A stretch of DNA of 57,627 nt, taken from NCBI RefSeq assembly GCF_020252405.1, contig NZ_JADCDA010000078.1, forward strand, positions 1-57,627, written 5' to 3'. Each line of letters starts with the position of its first letter. Within the stretch, counting starts at the first letter, position 1. A program made the position numbers and the translations under genes. Positions 11,226 through 33,956 of this stretch are shown in pieces. The notes beneath the pieces are model-generated. The model did no database searches. It was not told where the DNA came from and saw only the letters and a list, made by a program, of their open reading frames with translations. The DNA comes from Aestuariivirga sp. Lineage in GTDB: Bacteria > Pseudomonadota > Alphaproteobacteria > Rhizobiales > Aestuariivirgaceae.

Positions 11226-11283
11226 GCGCCGCTTGTAGCAAAAGCCGCTTGCCAGCGCACGCGGGAAGCCTTAGTTCTGATTT

Positions 11284-11383
11284 CGCTCTCAACGGGGTGC
11301 CGCGCCCAAGCGGCTGAGACGGGGCTTATGCCCCAAACCCGCTGAACCTGATCCGGATCATGCCGGCGGAGGGATTGCGAGCG
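11284..11383 (+). promoter_or_regulatory. TPP riboswitch (THI element)
   Basis: The conserved THI-box parts are present in order: GGGGTGC, GGCTGAGA, ACCCGCTGAACCTGATC, GGATCATGCCGGCGGAGGGA. CGCTC at 11284 pairs with GAGCG at 11379-11383 to close helix P1. It sits 52 bp upstream of thiB, so thiBPQ should be switched off when TPP is abundant. Confidence 0.95.
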
Positions 11384-11434
11384 GGCGTTCTCACCCAATG
11401 CCCAATCCTCCATCCAACGGCCAATGGAGGTATT

Positions 11435-29191: not shown

Positions 29192-30235
29192 TTGGTTGCA
29201 GTCTTCGATGGCCACAACGACGTGCTGCTCCGCCTGTGGAGCAAGAAGCAGGGCGACCCCGTCGCTGACTTTCTGAATGGCGACAATCAGGGCCATCTCG
29301 ACCTGCCCCGCATGATCAGGGGCGGTTTCCAGGGCGGCTTCTTCGCCATTTTCGCGCCGAGCCCCGATGACGCGTCACTCGTCGACGACGAGGACATGAA
29401 CCCGCCGCCCGCCAACCACGTGGGCCAGGCGGGCGCGCTCAACGCCACCATCGGCATGGCCTCGATCCTCCACCGCATCGAAGAACGCTCCGGGGGCCGC
29501 TTCAAGCTGTGCCGCACCGCCGCGGAGATTCGCGATGCAGTGGCCCAGGGCAAGATCGCCGCGATATTCCATATCGAGGGTGCGGAGGCGATAGACCCGG
29601 ACCTGAAGTCGCTCGACGTGCTGCACATGGCAGGCCTGCGCTCTCTCGGCCTGGTGTGGAGCCGCAACAATGCCTTCGGCGAGGGCGTGCCCTTCCGCTT
29701 CCCCTCCTCGCCCGACACCGGCTCTGGCCTCACCGGGGCCGGCAAGGCGCTGGTGCGGCGCTGCAACGAACTCAAGATCATGCTCGACGTCTCGCACCTC
29801 AACGAGAAGGGTTTCTGGGACGTGGCGCGCCACTCCACCGCCCCCATCGTCGCCACCCACTCCAACGCGCACGCGCTGTGCCAATCCTCACGCAACCTGA
29901 CCGACGACCAGTTGAAGATCATCGGCCAGACAGGCGGCATGGTGGGGCTGAACTTCGCCAATGGCTTCCTGCGCGCCGATGGCCGCTGGCAGAGCGAGAA
30001 CGGGCTGGACACCATGCTCCGCCACCTCGACCACATGATGAAGCTGGCGGGCGAGGACCATGTGGGGCTGGGCTCCGACTTCGACGGCGCCCGCATCCCC
30101 TCCCAGATCGGCGACGTGACGGGCCTCCCCCGGCTGGTCGAAGCCATGGCCGCGCATGGTTATGGCGCGGACCTCAGCCGCAAGCTGTGCTCCGGAAACT
30201 GGATGCGGGTGCTGGAACGCAGCTGGGGCGAATAA
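29192..30235 (+). CDS. Membrane dipeptidase family hydrolase (peptidase M19)
   Basis: This 347-residue zinc peptidase resembles renal dipeptidase. The binuclear zinc ligands are visible as FDGHNDVLLRLW (His, Asp), IFHIEGAEAI (Glu), VATHSNAHAL (His region) and GLGSDFDGA (Asp). It should hydrolyse dipeptides, possibly including D-residues. No signal peptide is seen. The start is TTG 29192 behind GGGGGATGAGA; an ATG at 29184 is in another frame. It stands alone between sodB and the ribB-like gene. Confidence 0.85.
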   Translation: MVAVFDGHNDVLLRLWSKKQGDPVADFLNGDNQGHLDLPRMIRGGFQGGFFAIFAPSPDDASLVDDEDMNPPPANHVGQAGALNATIGMASILHRIEERSGGRFKLCRTAAEIRDAVAQGKIAAIFHIEGAEAIDPDLKSLDVLHMAGLRSLGLVWSRNNAFGEGVPFRFPSSPDTGSGLTGAGKALVRRCNELKIMLDVSHLNEKGFWDVARHSTAPIVATHSNAHALCQSSRNLTDDQLKIIGQTGGMVGLNFANGFLRADGRWQSENGLDTMLRHLDHMMKLAGEDHVGLGSDFDGARIPSQIGDVTGLPRLVEAMAAHGYGADLSRKLCSGNWMRVLERSWGE

Positions 30236-30249
30236 GCCGCAGAGGGGCT

Positions 30250-30278
30250 TTGCACAGAACTATTAGCGGTGCTAATAG
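30250..30278 (+). promoter_or_regulatory. Promoter with palindromic operator for the HTH-RibB gene
   Basis: TTGCAC (30250-30255) and TAATAG (30273-30278) have exactly 17 bp between them. The perfect palindrome CTATTAGC-GGT-GCTAATAG (30260-30278) covers the spacer and the -10 box. The ATG is only 7 bp beyond the -10, with no ribosome site between, which predicts a leaderless mRNA. Since the gene itself encodes an N-terminal helix-turn-helix, this is a good candidate for an autoregulatory operator. Confidence 0.6.
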
Positions 30279-30285
30279 CACCCTC

Positions 30286-31566
30286 ATGAAGCTTTCCGAG
30301 TGGCTCATTAATAGCGGTATGTCGCAATCCGAACTGGCGCGGCGGCTGGGGGTCACCCAGGGCCGGGTCTCGCAGCTCGTGGCGGGGGCGCAGCCCTCCC
30401 TTGATCTCGCCAACAAGATTGCCGCCGCCACGGGCAACAAGGTGCGCGCGCAGGATTTTGGAGACCAGACCATGCCGAACCAACACAAGCCCGACCCTGT
30501 CGAGGACGCGATCAAGGCGATTGCCGCGGGCGAGATGGTGGTCGTCATCGACGACGACGACCGCGAAAACGAGGGCGACCTGATCGCCGCGGCCGCCAAG
30601 ATCACGGCTGAGCAGATGGCCTTCATGGTGCGCCACACCTCCGGCATCGTGTGCACGCCGATCACCGCCGAGGACGCCAGGCGCCTGAAGCTCGACCCCA
30701 TGGTGGCGCTGAACGATGCGCCCATGGGCACCGCCTTCACCGTGACGATCGACTACAAGGAGGGCCTCACCACCGGCATCTCGGCCAGGGAACGTGCCGC
30801 GACCTGCCATGCGCTGGCCAACCGCAATGTGGTGGCGGATGATTTCGTGCGTCCCGGCCACATCTTCCCGCTGGTCGCCAAGTCCGGCGGGGTGCTGATG
30901 CGCTCGGGCCACACGGAAGCGGCCGTGGACCTCGTGAAGCTCGCCGGCCTCCACCCCGCCGGCGTCATCTGCGAGCTCGTCAATGATGACGGCTCGGTGA
31001 AGCGCGGGCAGCAGGTCATGGCCTTCGCGCGCGAGCATGGCTTCAAGATCATCTCGGTCGCCGACCTCATCGCCTATCGCCAGCGCCTGGAGCGCCTGGT
31101 CGAGCAGACCGCGCAGTTCGACGTCGAGACAGTGATCGGCAAGGCCAGGGGTTATTCCTTCGTCACCCCCTTCGACCAGGTGGCACAACTGGCGCTGGTG
31201 TTCGGCGATGTCTCGCCGGGCAAGGCGGTACCGGTGCGTCTCCACCGCGAGAACGTGCTGGAAGACGTGTTCGGCACGCGCGGCACGCTCAACAAGGTGT
31301 TCGAGGTGTTCAGGCGCGAGGGTTCGGGCATTCTGGTCTACCTGCAGGAAGGGGCCGCCGGCGTTCCGGCAGGCCAGCTGGCGGGTGCGGAGAAGACCGG
31401 CAGCGCCGCCCGGCGCCAGCAGTCGTGGCGTGACGTGGGCCTCGGCGCGCAAATCCTGCGCGACCTCAACGTCAGCTCCATCCGCCTCGTCTCCTCCTCC
31501 AACCGCCACTATGTCGGCCTTTCAGGCTTCGGCATCGTGATCGCCGAAACGATCAAGCTCGACTAA
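30286..31566 (+). CDS. ribB: HTH-domain fused 3,4-dihydroxy-2-butanone-4-phosphate synthase (RibBX type)
   Basis: This 426-residue protein has three parts. Residues 1-60 are a Cro/XRE-like helix-turn-helix (GMSQSELARRLGVTQGRVSQL). Residues about 65-265 are RibB, which makes the four-carbon unit of riboflavin from ribulose 5-phosphate; DDDDRENEGDL, RHTSGIVCTP and MRSGHTEAAVDL are intact. Residues about 270-426 resemble GTP cyclohydrolase II, but the zinc cysteines are gone (RENVLEDVFG and TRGTLNK stand where Cys-bearing motifs belong), as in the RibBX variant. The HTH addition is unusual. An internal ATG at 30472 with a GGAG site could make RibBX alone. No FMN riboswitch precedes it. Confidence 0.88.
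   Translation: MKLSEWLINSGMSQSELARRLGVTQGRVSQLVAGAQPSLDLANKIAAATGNKVRAQDFGDQTMPNQHKPDPVEDAIKAIAAGEMVVVIDDDDRENEGDLIAAAAKITAEQMAFMVRHTSGIVCTPITAEDARRLKLDPMVALNDAPMGTAFTVTIDYKEGLTTGISARERAATCHALANRNVVADDFVRPGHIFPLVAKSGGVLMRSGHTEAAVDLVKLAGLHPAGVICELVNDDGSVKRGQQVMAFAREHGFKIISVADLIAYRQRLERLVEQTAQFDVETVIGKARGYSFVTPFDQVAQLALVFGDVSPGKAVPVRLHRENVLEDVFGTRGTLNKVFEVFRREGSGILVYLQEGAAGVPAGQLAGAEKTGSAARRQQSWRDVGLGAQILRDLNVSSIRLVSSSNRHYVGLSGFGIVIAETIKLD
30460..30474 (+). promoter_or_regulatory. Internal ribosome site and second start in the HTH-RibB gene
   Basis: GGAG at 30460-30463 precedes the in-frame ATG at 30472-30474 by 8 bp. Translation from here would give a 364-residue RibBX lacking the helix-turn-helix, the length and start usual for the family. 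Confidence 0.4.
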
Positions 31567-31594
31567 AGCCGCGCGCCCGGCCTAAACTGGACTC

Positions 31595-32047
31595 ATGCGG
31601 ACGGCGCGAACCAGACAGCCGGGGGACGGCCAGCCGGTGATCATCGGCTGGCGCGAAAAGGTCAGCCTGCCGCAGCTGGGTGTGGGCGCCTTCTCCGCCA
31701 AGATCGACACCGGGGCGCGCCTGGCCGCGCTGCACGCCACCAACATCGAGCGCGACGACCATCACGTGAACTTCGTGCTGCCGCTGCCAAAGCGCCGCCA
31801 CCGCTGCCGCCTGCCGCTCAAGGGCATGCGGCGCGTCAAAAGCTCCAACGGCCAGACCGAGACGCGCGCCGTGGTCGAGACCGATGTGAAGATCGGCAAG
31901 ATCATGCTGCGCATCGACGTGACGCTGACTGACCGCACCGACATGGGCGTCGCCATGCTGCTGGGCCGCGGCTCCATCGGTCATGACTTCCTCGTGCACC
32001 CGGCGAAGACCAACCTGCTTTCGGCGAAGAAACGCAAGACGCCATGA
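31595..32047 (+). CDS. RimB-like retropepsin-type protease (ATP-dependent zinc protease family)
   Basis: This 150-residue protein matches the family annotated as putative ATP-dependent zinc protease, structurally retropepsin-like. The aspartic protease-type motif [13 protein letters not shown] is present, with a later [13 protein letters not shown]. In pseudomonads RimB of this family removes glutamates that RimK adds to ribosomal protein S6. The next gene is rimK, overlapping by 4 bp, which supports the same role. The C-terminus is rich in Lys and Arg. Confidence 0.82.
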
Positions 32048-32949
32048 AGATCGCGCTGCTGACAAGAAACCAGAAACTCTATTCCCACCGGCGCCTGATC
32101 GAGACGGCGGCCAGGCGCGGACACGAGATGGTGCCGGTCGACTATCTCAAATGCTATATGAACATCACGTCCAGGAAGCCGGAGCTGCGCTTTCAGGGCG
32201 AGAAGCTCGAGGGCTTCGACGCGGTGATCCCGCGCATCGGCGCGTCGCACACCTTCTATGGCATGGCCGTGCTGCGCCAGTTCGAGATGATGGGCGTCTA
32301 TCCGCTGAATGAATCGGTGGCCATCGGCCGCTCGCGCGACAAGCTGCGCTCGCTGCAATTGCTGGCGCGTGACGGCGTGGGGCTTCCCGTCACCGCCTTC
32401 GCGCATGACTCCAAGCGCACCGATGACCTGCTGGACATCGTCGGCGGCGCCCCCGTCGTCATCAAGCTGCTGGAGGGCACGCAGGGCATCGGCGTGGTGC
32501 TGAGCGAAACGCACAAGTCGGCAAAGTCGGTGGTTGAGGCCTTCCACGGCGCCAATGTGGCCATCCTTGTGCAGGAATTCATCAAGGAGGCGGAGGGCAG
32601 CGACATCCGCGCCTTCATCGTGGGCCGCTCGCTGGTGGCGGCCATGGAGCGCAAGGGCGCGAAGGGCGACTTCCGCTCCAACCTGCACCGCGGCGGCACC
32701 GCCAGCATGATCGAACTCACGCCGCTGGAGAAAGCCACGGCGCTGAAGGCGGCGCGCTCGATGGGCCTCAACGTGGCGGGCGTCGACATGCTGCGCTCTT
32801 CGCATGGGCCGGTGGTGATCGAGGTCAATTCCTCGCCCGGCCTCGAGGGCATCGAGACGGCGACGGGCGTGGACGTGGCCAGCACCATCATCCGTTTCGT
32901 CGAGCGCCATGCCAAACCCGGCCACACGCGCACGCGGGGCAAGGGATGA
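32044..32949 (+). CDS. rimK: Ribosomal protein S6--L-glutamate ligase
   Basis: This 301-residue ATP-grasp ligase is close to E. coli RimK in length and motifs: [78 protein letters not shown] and the metal site [14 protein letters not shown]. It adds glutamates to the C-terminus of S6 and in E. coli also makes poly-glutamate. It is the middle gene of a three-gene overlapping operon with a RimB-like protease and an aspartoacylase-like hydrolase. Confidence 0.93.
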
Positions 32950-33956
32950 GCAGCTTTATCCTTGGCGAGGCCAGCGTCGGGCCGGGCCAGCGCGCCACGG
33001 TGAACCTGCCGGTCAGCACGCTGTCGAACCACACCCACGTGATGCTGCCCGTCCACGTGGTGCATGGCGAGGAGCCGGGGCCCGCCATGTTCCTCTCGGG
33101 CGCCATCCACGGCGACGAGATCCAGGGTGTGGAGATCATCCGCCGCATCCTGAACCATCCCGCGCTGCAAGGCCTCCGCGGCACGCTGCTGGCCGTGCCG
33201 ATCGTCAACAGCTTCGGCTTCCTCAACCACACCCGCTACATGCCGGACCGGCGCGACCTGAACCGCTGCTTTCCCGGCACCGACCGCGGCTCGCTGGCGA
33301 GTCTCGTGGCCGACATCTTCTTCCGCGAAGTGGTGCTGAAGAGCCAGTATGGCGTCGATTTCCACACCGCGGCGTTGCACCGCTCCAACCTGCCGCAGGT
33401 GCGCCTCGCACCCGACGAGCCAGAACTGCTGAGACTGGCGCAGGCCTTCGCGCCGCCGGTGATCCTGATCTCCAGGCTGCGCGAGGGCTCGCTTCGCCTG
33501 TCCGCCCGCGGGGCCGGCGTGAAGGTGCTGCTCTATGAAGGCGGCGAGGCGTTGCGCTTCGACGAGCCCGCCATCGACGCCGCGGTGCGCGGCACGCTGC
33601 GCGTGATGGCGCATCTCGGCATGGTGGAGCCACACCCGCGGCCGGTGGGCCAAACAGTGTTGTCGGATGCAAGTTCGTGGGTGCGCGCGCCCGAAAGCGG
33701 CATCCTGCACACCACGCGGCGCACCGGCGACCGCGTGGGCAAGGGCGAGGTGGTGGGCGTGGTGGCGGATCCATGGGGCCAGTCATCCCTGCCGCTGTTC
33801 GCCGAATGGGACGGCATCATCGTGGGCCGCACCAACCTGCCGCTGGTGAACCGCGGCGACGCCGTGTTCCACATCGCCAGGGCCACGCCGCTGGCGGCAA
33901 TTCGTCAGCACCCGGATGAAGCGGCGGCGCTGGCGGACGAGGATGAGATCATCTGA
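32946..33956 (+). CDS. Succinylglutamate desuccinylase/aspartoacylase-family protein
   Basis: This 336-residue zinc hydrolase belongs to the M14-like AstE/aspartoacylase group. Zinc ligands are in [13 protein letters not shown] (His, Glu) and DFHTAALHR (His); [13 protein letters not shown] and RDLNRCFPG bind the substrate carboxylate. The C-terminal third is a beta-rich biotinyl-like domain. It hydrolyses an N-acyl amino acid or related bond; given translational overlap with rimK, removal or trimming of glutamate tails is a reasonable guess but unproven. Confidence 0.85.

Follow-up and report, generated by a model that had tools for sequence, protein, structure and literature searches.

Control of riboflavin genes in bacteria is usually ascribed to riboswitches, the flavin mononucleotide (FMN) riboswitch controlling rib genes in response to FMN, and in archaea RbkR regulates a set of genes. 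The protein RibBX was reportedly described by Brutinel et al. in 2013. In the accessible part of PMC10012899, it consists of RibB and a guanosine triphosphate (GTP) cyclohydrolase II-like domain without zinc cysteines, and a structure is available from Acinetobacter baumannii (6mnz). The trigger enzymes PutA, BirA, and NadR combine an enzyme and a DNA-binding domain in one polypeptide, and the only target given for PutA is its own locus (PMC8249747, accessible text). Archaeal RbkR, as far as the accessible text of PMC8305020 describes it, is a riboflavin-pathway enzyme with an N-terminal helix-turn-helix (HTH) that also acts as a gene regulator. The gene analyzed here lies in a 57,627-nucleotide stretch of DNA from Aestuariivirga sp. 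(contig NZ_JADCDA010000078.1; hereafter the window) and joins an HTH to RibBX. An earlier note, made from the letters of the window, had proposed that this riboflavin enzyme represses its own gene, and from comparison with relatives we consider it highly probable that HTH-RibBX is an autorepressing trigger enzyme.

When the locus is placed beside these systems, its parts are known (RibBX, the Cro-like HTH, and trigger enzymes), and the combination appears to be new, in that we did not notice it in the literature. The accessible portions of the RibBX descriptions mention neither an N-terminal HTH nor an operator at the protein's own promoter. A cognate putative operator at its own promoter, for which the evidence is comparative, makes HTH-RibBX resemble PutA; it differs from the trigger enzymes in the enzyme and pathway concerned, in the placement of a Cro-like HTH before RibBX, and in a probable leaderless mRNA and HTH-less second product. 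RbkR is archaeal and carries an HTH with a cytidine triphosphate-dependent riboflavin kinase, whereas the protein described here carries 3,4-dihydroxy-2-butanone 4-phosphate (DHBP) synthase and RibX and no kinase domain, and it would have one promoter as its target rather than a set of genes. The FMN riboswitch is RNA-based, whereas the switch proposed for HTH-RibBX would be protein-based. An HTH fused to RibB was not noticed in searches of open-access PubMed Central text, and the term helix-turn-helix is absent from the accessible part of a 2026 riboflavin review (PMC13028884).

By Pfam and predicted structure, the gene encodes a DNA-binding domain and enzyme domains in a single polypeptide (Table 1), and Pfam and alignment bore out the claim of the earlier note that a Cro/XRE-like HTH is joined in frame to RibB and a cyclohydrolase domain lacking the zinc cysteines. 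The HTH_3 family (PF01381) matches residues 5-50 with 38.5 bits against a cut-off of 23, a cut-off that some relatives do not reach (e.g., L203 with 19.9 and L229 with 21.0). Six pairwise comparisons with the window gene gave ratios of nonsynonymous to synonymous substitution of about 0.14-0.32 for the HTH, and on this basis the HTH frame is under purifying selection. The DHBP synthase domain looks intact by Pfam and alignment: the motifs DDDRE-EGD, RPGH, and SGHTE, which we take to be the active-site motifs of the enzyme, are invariant across 32 aligned fusions, with a change of N95 to G in L137 as the sole exception. The RibX domain is present in all 32 rows, and its cysteine stretch typical of GTP cyclohydrolase II is replaced, both in the alignment with 4i14 and in the 32-row alignment; by sequence, RibX would be inactive as a cyclohydrolase. 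The predicted structure places HTH helices at residues 3-10, 14-21, 25-32, and 39-48 (block-mean predicted local distance difference test [pLDDT] score 81-90 for residues 1-50), followed by a weak linker at 60-66 and then RibB and RibX; with a mean pLDDT of 70.6, a predicted template modeling score of 0.50, and RibB and RibX weak in stretches, this model served for domain layout only. Its best fold matches were two chains of mycobacterial RibBA 4i14, with 6mnz (titled RibBX) third, and no HTH chain stands among the 50 PDB matches listed.

A perfect palindrome, CTATTAGC-GGT-GCTAATAG, can be read directly in front of the gene, and it overlaps the -10-like box at the spacings (Table 1) that the earlier note had given. 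It occurs as one exact copy in the 2.87-Mb genome (107 contigs, 93.7% complete), where the next best copy has 3 mismatches and no other target lies within 2 mismatches of the palindrome arms. The palindrome goes beyond chance because of this single exact copy, the distance of the next best, and its conservation in relatives. When relatives were searched for the HTH-RibBX domain order and the palindrome, an HTH was found joined to RibBX in at least 28 of 80 genomes (own included), of which 25 carry the HTH subtype of the gene analyzed here (type 1), 2 a second subtype (type 2), and 1 another HTH, and the palindrome proved to be conserved with the fusion. The type-1 set comprises 27 loci, namely the 25 from the 80 genomes together with Thermopetrobacter L043 and Hyphomicrobiales L044. 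The pattern TTA[GA][CT]-N3-[GA][CT]TAA is found within 80 nucleotides (nt) upstream of the start in 26/27 type-1 loci versus 1/27 type-2 loci (L148), and 24/27 type-1 loci have only 6-12 nt between the end of the site and the ATG; L043 carries a one-base variant. With at most one mismatch allowed, the core site is the sole one in the genome and stands at ribB in 19 of the 25 type-1 genomes, and it is absent from the 15 unfused congeners tested out of 20. Within the type-1 clade, locus L027, the sister of the fused L025, lacks both the HTH and an operator-like palindrome.

Outside this set, the HTH profile matched 49 of 199 genomes of the order, stand-alone proteins included, and the loci that were read contain 25 further HTH-RibBX fusions whose recognition region is mostly of an SPA type in place of TQGRVSQL. 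These 25 with L028 and L029 make up the type-2 set of 27 loci. A degenerate TTCAGT-N3-ACTGAA-like pattern lies within 80 nt upstream in 25 of them (not L137 or L151) and in none of the 27 type-1 loci; in 17 loci the distance from its end to the ATG is 24-26 nt, and 6 loci have two matches. In 20/24 type-2 genomes this site stands at the ribB promoter, with extra sites in G160 only, and it is absent from four unfused genomes. Across these loci, HTH subtype and operator co-vary. Together with the single genomic site in most genomes and the lack of an operator in L027, this co-variation argues for the autorepression by the HTH that had been proposed from the window. Further variants add to the picture. 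A wider HTH profile gave 31 matches among 385 genomes drawn from the class, and L203 and L204, from another order, carry HTH-RibBX with a third variant, which is perfect in L203 (TTTTAAGTTTGACTTAAAA) and weak in L204; the tree places both inside type 2. Within the type-2 clade (L203, L204, L148, and L150), a shift of the recognition region from TALCN to TQLCN/TQFCN goes together with the operator variants TTAAGT and TTTAGT, which is a possible step in a change of specificity. At locus L030 (G075), RibBX carries an unrelated HTH_3; a different perfect palindrome, GTTGCCAAAATGGCAAC, is found there and the TTG-17-TA-6-ATG spacing recurs, so that this is apparently an independent capture of an HTH by RibBX. 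Two operator-like sites about 27-33 base pairs apart occur in L018, L149, L152, L153, L154, and L155, an arrangement that suggests cooperative binding.

The HTH-less relatives give a complementary view. TTAGC was not found within 80 nt of the presumed start in any of 12 HTH-less RibBX loci, in three of which the start is uncertain (no ATG near the match); CAGT is present in L166, and a G+C-rich inverted repeat in L026 resembles a terminator. Eleven of the 12 are in the tree, where they stand at several positions, some on long branches, and because they are scattered in this way the HTH was gained or lost several times. According to the earlier note, its reading would fall if a stop or frameshift separated HTH from RibB in close relatives. 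Matches in G055, G059, G064, and G076 that run through a TGA show no HTH relic, the region towards the HTH being upstream sequence in frame only; the fused loci themselves are open between HTH and RibB by selection of loci. In L172 (G064), the HTH-less ribBX overlaps by 4 nt the end of a chorismate-synthase-like open reading frame (ORF; 1548-2675, product named by eye), an overlap which suggests that transcription there comes from an operon and not from a promoter of its own. A plasmid search for fused named genes was also tried; 13 of the 15 matches listed (309 records) begin at query residue 57 or later and so carry no HTH.

A TTG, followed after 16-18 nt by a hexamer that starts with TA and has its end 5-8 nt ahead of the ATG, is found in 38/54 fusions versus 20/3339 other ATGs of the same loci. 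Of the type-1 loci, 24/27 have the operator over the -10 region, and 17/27 type-2 loci have a site over the -35 region. Transcription is predicted to start at or next to ATG 30286. A Shine-Dalgarno sequence is missing at the HTH start (mean duplex energy -0.27 kcal/mol across the fusions; -4 kcal/mol or stronger in 3/54), and because of this and the promoter-to-ATG geometry the fusion mRNA is probably leaderless; the conservation of that geometry agrees with the leaderless start proposed earlier. The junction between HTH and RibB, in turn, has an ATG or GTG with a Shine-Dalgarno sequence of -4 kcal/mol or stronger in 48/54 fusions compared with 189/824 control stretches (missing in L009, which is masked, and in L017, L018, L020, L021, and L138), and a GTG with a Shine-Dalgarno sequence of -6.6 to -8.0 kcal/mol stands at this position in 7 of 16 loci looked at. 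This conserved junction start suggests a second, HTH-less product, as would follow from the internal ribosome site that the earlier note had considered.

No FMN riboswitch (RF00050) was found in the window at the Rfam gathering score, as the earlier note had held, or in the own genome by a search with stricter filters, which lose some weak matches. Within the genus, the riboswitch is present in 0/16 fused versus 15/20 unfused genomes (Fisher P = 3.2e-6, uncorrected for kinship, with G009 omitted as it has a RibBX fragment only), and the family's nine remaining type-1 genomes lack it too, so that none of the 25 type-1 genomes has it. By this comparison, fusion and FMN riboswitch are alternative states in the genus, common descent and repeated replacement not being separated.

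It can therefore be asked how such a switch might work, and in what follows we infer binding, repression, dimer geometry, and the two products from sequence. The RibB/RibX dimer would hold two HTH domains, and the paired HTHs would bind the palindrome and so block RNA polymerase at the gene's own promoter, which would place the supply of DHBP synthase, and hence of riboflavin, under negative feedback at a single promoter. Read from its 5' ATG, the probably leaderless mRNA would give HTH-RibBX, both repressor and enzyme, and read from the internal Shine-Dalgarno-led ATG or GTG, the same mRNA would give RibBX, the enzyme only. In this genus, the switch would stand in place of the FMN riboswitch of the congeners. 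The least certain step is the tuning of DNA binding by a ligand on RibX or RibB, which could be a flavin, GTP, or ribulose 5-phosphate. RibX is a natural candidate for the sensor, because regulation of the RibB domain by the X domain is reported for Shewanella oneidensis (PMC10012899, accessible text).

Four other explanations were weighed against this autorepressing trigger enzyme. The strongest is that HTH-RibBX represses in proportion to its own concentration only, as a homeostat without modulation by a metabolite. One target site in most genomes would suit it, no ligand site can be pointed to, and several small stand-alone HTH proteins of the same family also have CC-N5-GG before their own ATG; set against this are the retention of a RibX inactive by sequence in 32/32 aligned rows, the reported control of RibB by the X domain in S. 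oneidensis, and the place of the fusion, which stands where congeners use the FMN riboswitch. We regard such a ligand-free homeostat as a reasonable, if tentative, minority view. Second, HTH-RibBX could act as an activator, or the palindrome could be used by another regulator. An activator could sit at the type-2 sites that lie farther from the start, since in 8/27 type-2 loci the pattern is present only 52-53 nt ahead of the ATG, with five further loci carrying it both at that distance and near 24. The coverage of the -10 region (24/27 type-1) or the -35 region (17/27 type-2), however, is typical of repressors, and the identity of the operator tracks the subtype of the fused HTH, with both missing in L027, so we consider this explanation unlikely. 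Third, the HTH could be an untranslated upstream frame, fortuitously open, with the true start at the internal ATG 30472, where a good Shine-Dalgarno sequence is present while the upstream ATG has none, and near which several HTH-less RibBX relatives begin; this reading was rejected as very improbable on account of the purifying selection on the frame, to which the significant HTH match and the co-variation of subtype and palindrome can be added. Finally, that the palindrome is an RNA hairpin (an attenuator, or a terminator of the upstream dipeptidase gene), as its being a perfect inverted repeat close behind the stop codon of that gene might indicate, was dismissed as scarcely credible, given short, A/T-rich arms, no T run after the repeat, no plus-strand terminator in a scan of 29900-31800, a motif family that changes with the HTH subtype, and an mRNA that, if leaderless, would not contain it.

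Several observations do count against the autorepressing trigger enzyme as we propose it. The operator patterns have degenerate positions and were composed after seeing the data, and the relatives are not independent. In L018 and L024 the type-1 pattern lies only about 42 nt upstream, and in 6/25 type-1 genomes no site is present when up to 1 mismatch is allowed. The type-2 loci with a pattern only at 52-53 nt (8/27) have it upstream of the -35 region, so simple occlusion is less obvious there. The promoter seen by the earlier note stood as to its geometry, which is conserved across relatives, but its hexamers match the sigma-70 consensus at only 6/12 positions and a consensus scan of the single sequence gave no promoter there; the promoter claim is thus made because of the comparison across relatives and not from single-sequence scoring. 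At the junction, random choice of synonymous codons often yields a Shine-Dalgarno sequence that is just as strong (a fraction of 0.02-1.0, depending on the locus), and the internal start may therefore in part be a relic of the ancestral RibBX start. An FMN riboswitch is likewise missing from 5/20 unfused congeners, and 20/32 genomes from other families of the order have neither riboswitch nor fusion, so the absence of a riboswitch is by itself common. Since no further operator sites were found, just one step of the pathway would be controlled.

As to the riboflavin pathway, a strong canonical cyclohydrolase match is present in each of the seven unfused congeners that have a RibB match, and in the 16 fused congeners the degenerate RibX gives the only match. 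This does not extend to every fused genome, as G066 (type 2) has a canonical match in addition. Canonical GTP cyclohydrolase II (RibA) was not found in the own genome or in 15 fused congeners (G001, G002, G005, G011, G014, G015, G017-G019, G024, G026, G029-G031, and G034). A similar gap in GTP opening is reported for Sinorhizobium and Brucella in the accessible text of PMC9478397. That RibX is itself the missing GTP-opening enzyme would be speculation. A BrbF-like creatininase was tried as partner for the missing RibA, and its patchy occurrence in 17/26 genomes (12/20 fused, 5/6 unfused) left the matter unsettled. RibH was not found in the own genome and is present in three fused congeners, from which it follows that the own genome is incomplete or differs there. 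Congeners G013, G016, G020, and G036 have an FMN riboswitch and no match to RibB or GTP cyclohydrolase II, with RibH also missing in G013 and G036, the two searched for it; these four may be riboflavin auxotrophs in which the riboswitch controls uptake.

The same HTH is also carried by other enzymes. It is found on CoaBC (both halves by profile in L046 and L135; L045 ends at the contig end after the first half), on a glutamine-synthetase-like enzyme (L211 and L220 by profile, L215 and L224 by eye), on MeaB (L214 and L223 by profile, L226 by eye), on an aspartate/ornithine carbamoyltransferase (L229), and on a nitrate-reductase-delta/TorD-like chaperone (L206). Small stand-alone Cro-like proteins have the same MKLxxWL...VTxNDF-like domain, several with a CC-N5-GG palindrome shortly before the ATG, and they differ from HTH-RibBX in having no enzyme attached and another type of operator. 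Many of the fusions to these other proteins have CC-N5-GG or a palindrome close to the ATG, and in the MeaB fusions L223 and L226 a perfect palindrome abuts it. CC-N5-GG occurs within 80 nt of the start in 16 of 18 fused and stand-alone loci (missing in L224 and L219) versus 2.9 expected from shuffles, a pattern chosen post hoc and loci picked by eye for an HTH of the RY..G.R.P type or near it, with the remaining stand-alone loci plus L206 and L208 left out of the count; it occurs in 5/27 type-1 and 3/27 type-2 loci. A general palindrome score was not significant for L211, L215, L220, L224, L229, L135, L045, and L046 (P = 0.08-1.0). We lean slightly towards a wider reading, in which these would be modular, self-governing alphaproteobacterial enzymes, with the HTH on at least six unrelated proteins, most having a private palindrome coded by HTH subtype, and with RibBX made as two products and replacing a riboswitch.

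Table 1. Coordinates (window numbering) of the HTH-RibBX gene and its putative control elements
Feature	Position	Strand	Remarks
-35-like TTGCAC	30250..30255	+	TTG at -35/-36 from ATG in 18/27 type-1 and 25/27 type-2 loci
Putative operator, perfect palindrome CTATTAGC-GGT-GCTAATAG	30260..30278		Kept with the fusion; one genomic copy; ATG 7 nt on
-10-like TAATAG in right arm of operator	30273..30278	+	17 nt after TTGCAC, 7 nt before ATG
HTH-RibBX coding sequence	30286..31566	+	426 amino acids plus stop; the open frame around it is longer
Cro/C1-type HTH domain, about residues 1-59	30286..30462	+	PF01381; recognition helix region VTQGRVSQL
Internal Shine-Dalgarno-like GGAGA	30460..30464	+	Duplex energy -6.4 kcal/mol
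Junction ATG (Met63), candidate second start for an HTH-less RibBX	30472..30474	+	Junction start conserved
DHBP synthase (RibB) domain, residues 73-264	30502..31077	+	PF00926, 279.9 bits
RibX domain (GTP cyclohydrolase II-like, without zinc cysteines), residues 274-423	31105..31554	+	PF00925, 97.2 bits
Type-2 site form			TTTCAGTNNNACTGAAA

Elsewhere in the window, a thiamine pyrophosphate riboswitch at 11283-11391 (80.2 bits) is the only Rfam match at gathering score. Downstream of the fusion, a Zn_protease/retropepsin-like ORF (31595-32047) overlaps ORF 32044-32949 by 4 nt, which in turn overlaps ORF 32946-33956 by 4 nt, and the ORFs across 31595-33956 form a probable operon.

If true, the analysis presented here would describe a protein-based replacement for a riboswitch, in which the enzyme is also the regulator and has one target in most genomes. 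The fusions could offer a clean test system, as HTH and operator would be swappable between two natural, hardly overlapping specificities. A role is also suggested for the poorly understood RibX, as the sensor of a DNA-binding enzyme, and the joining of such an HTH could be a general route by which alphaproteobacterial enzymes acquire their own repressor.

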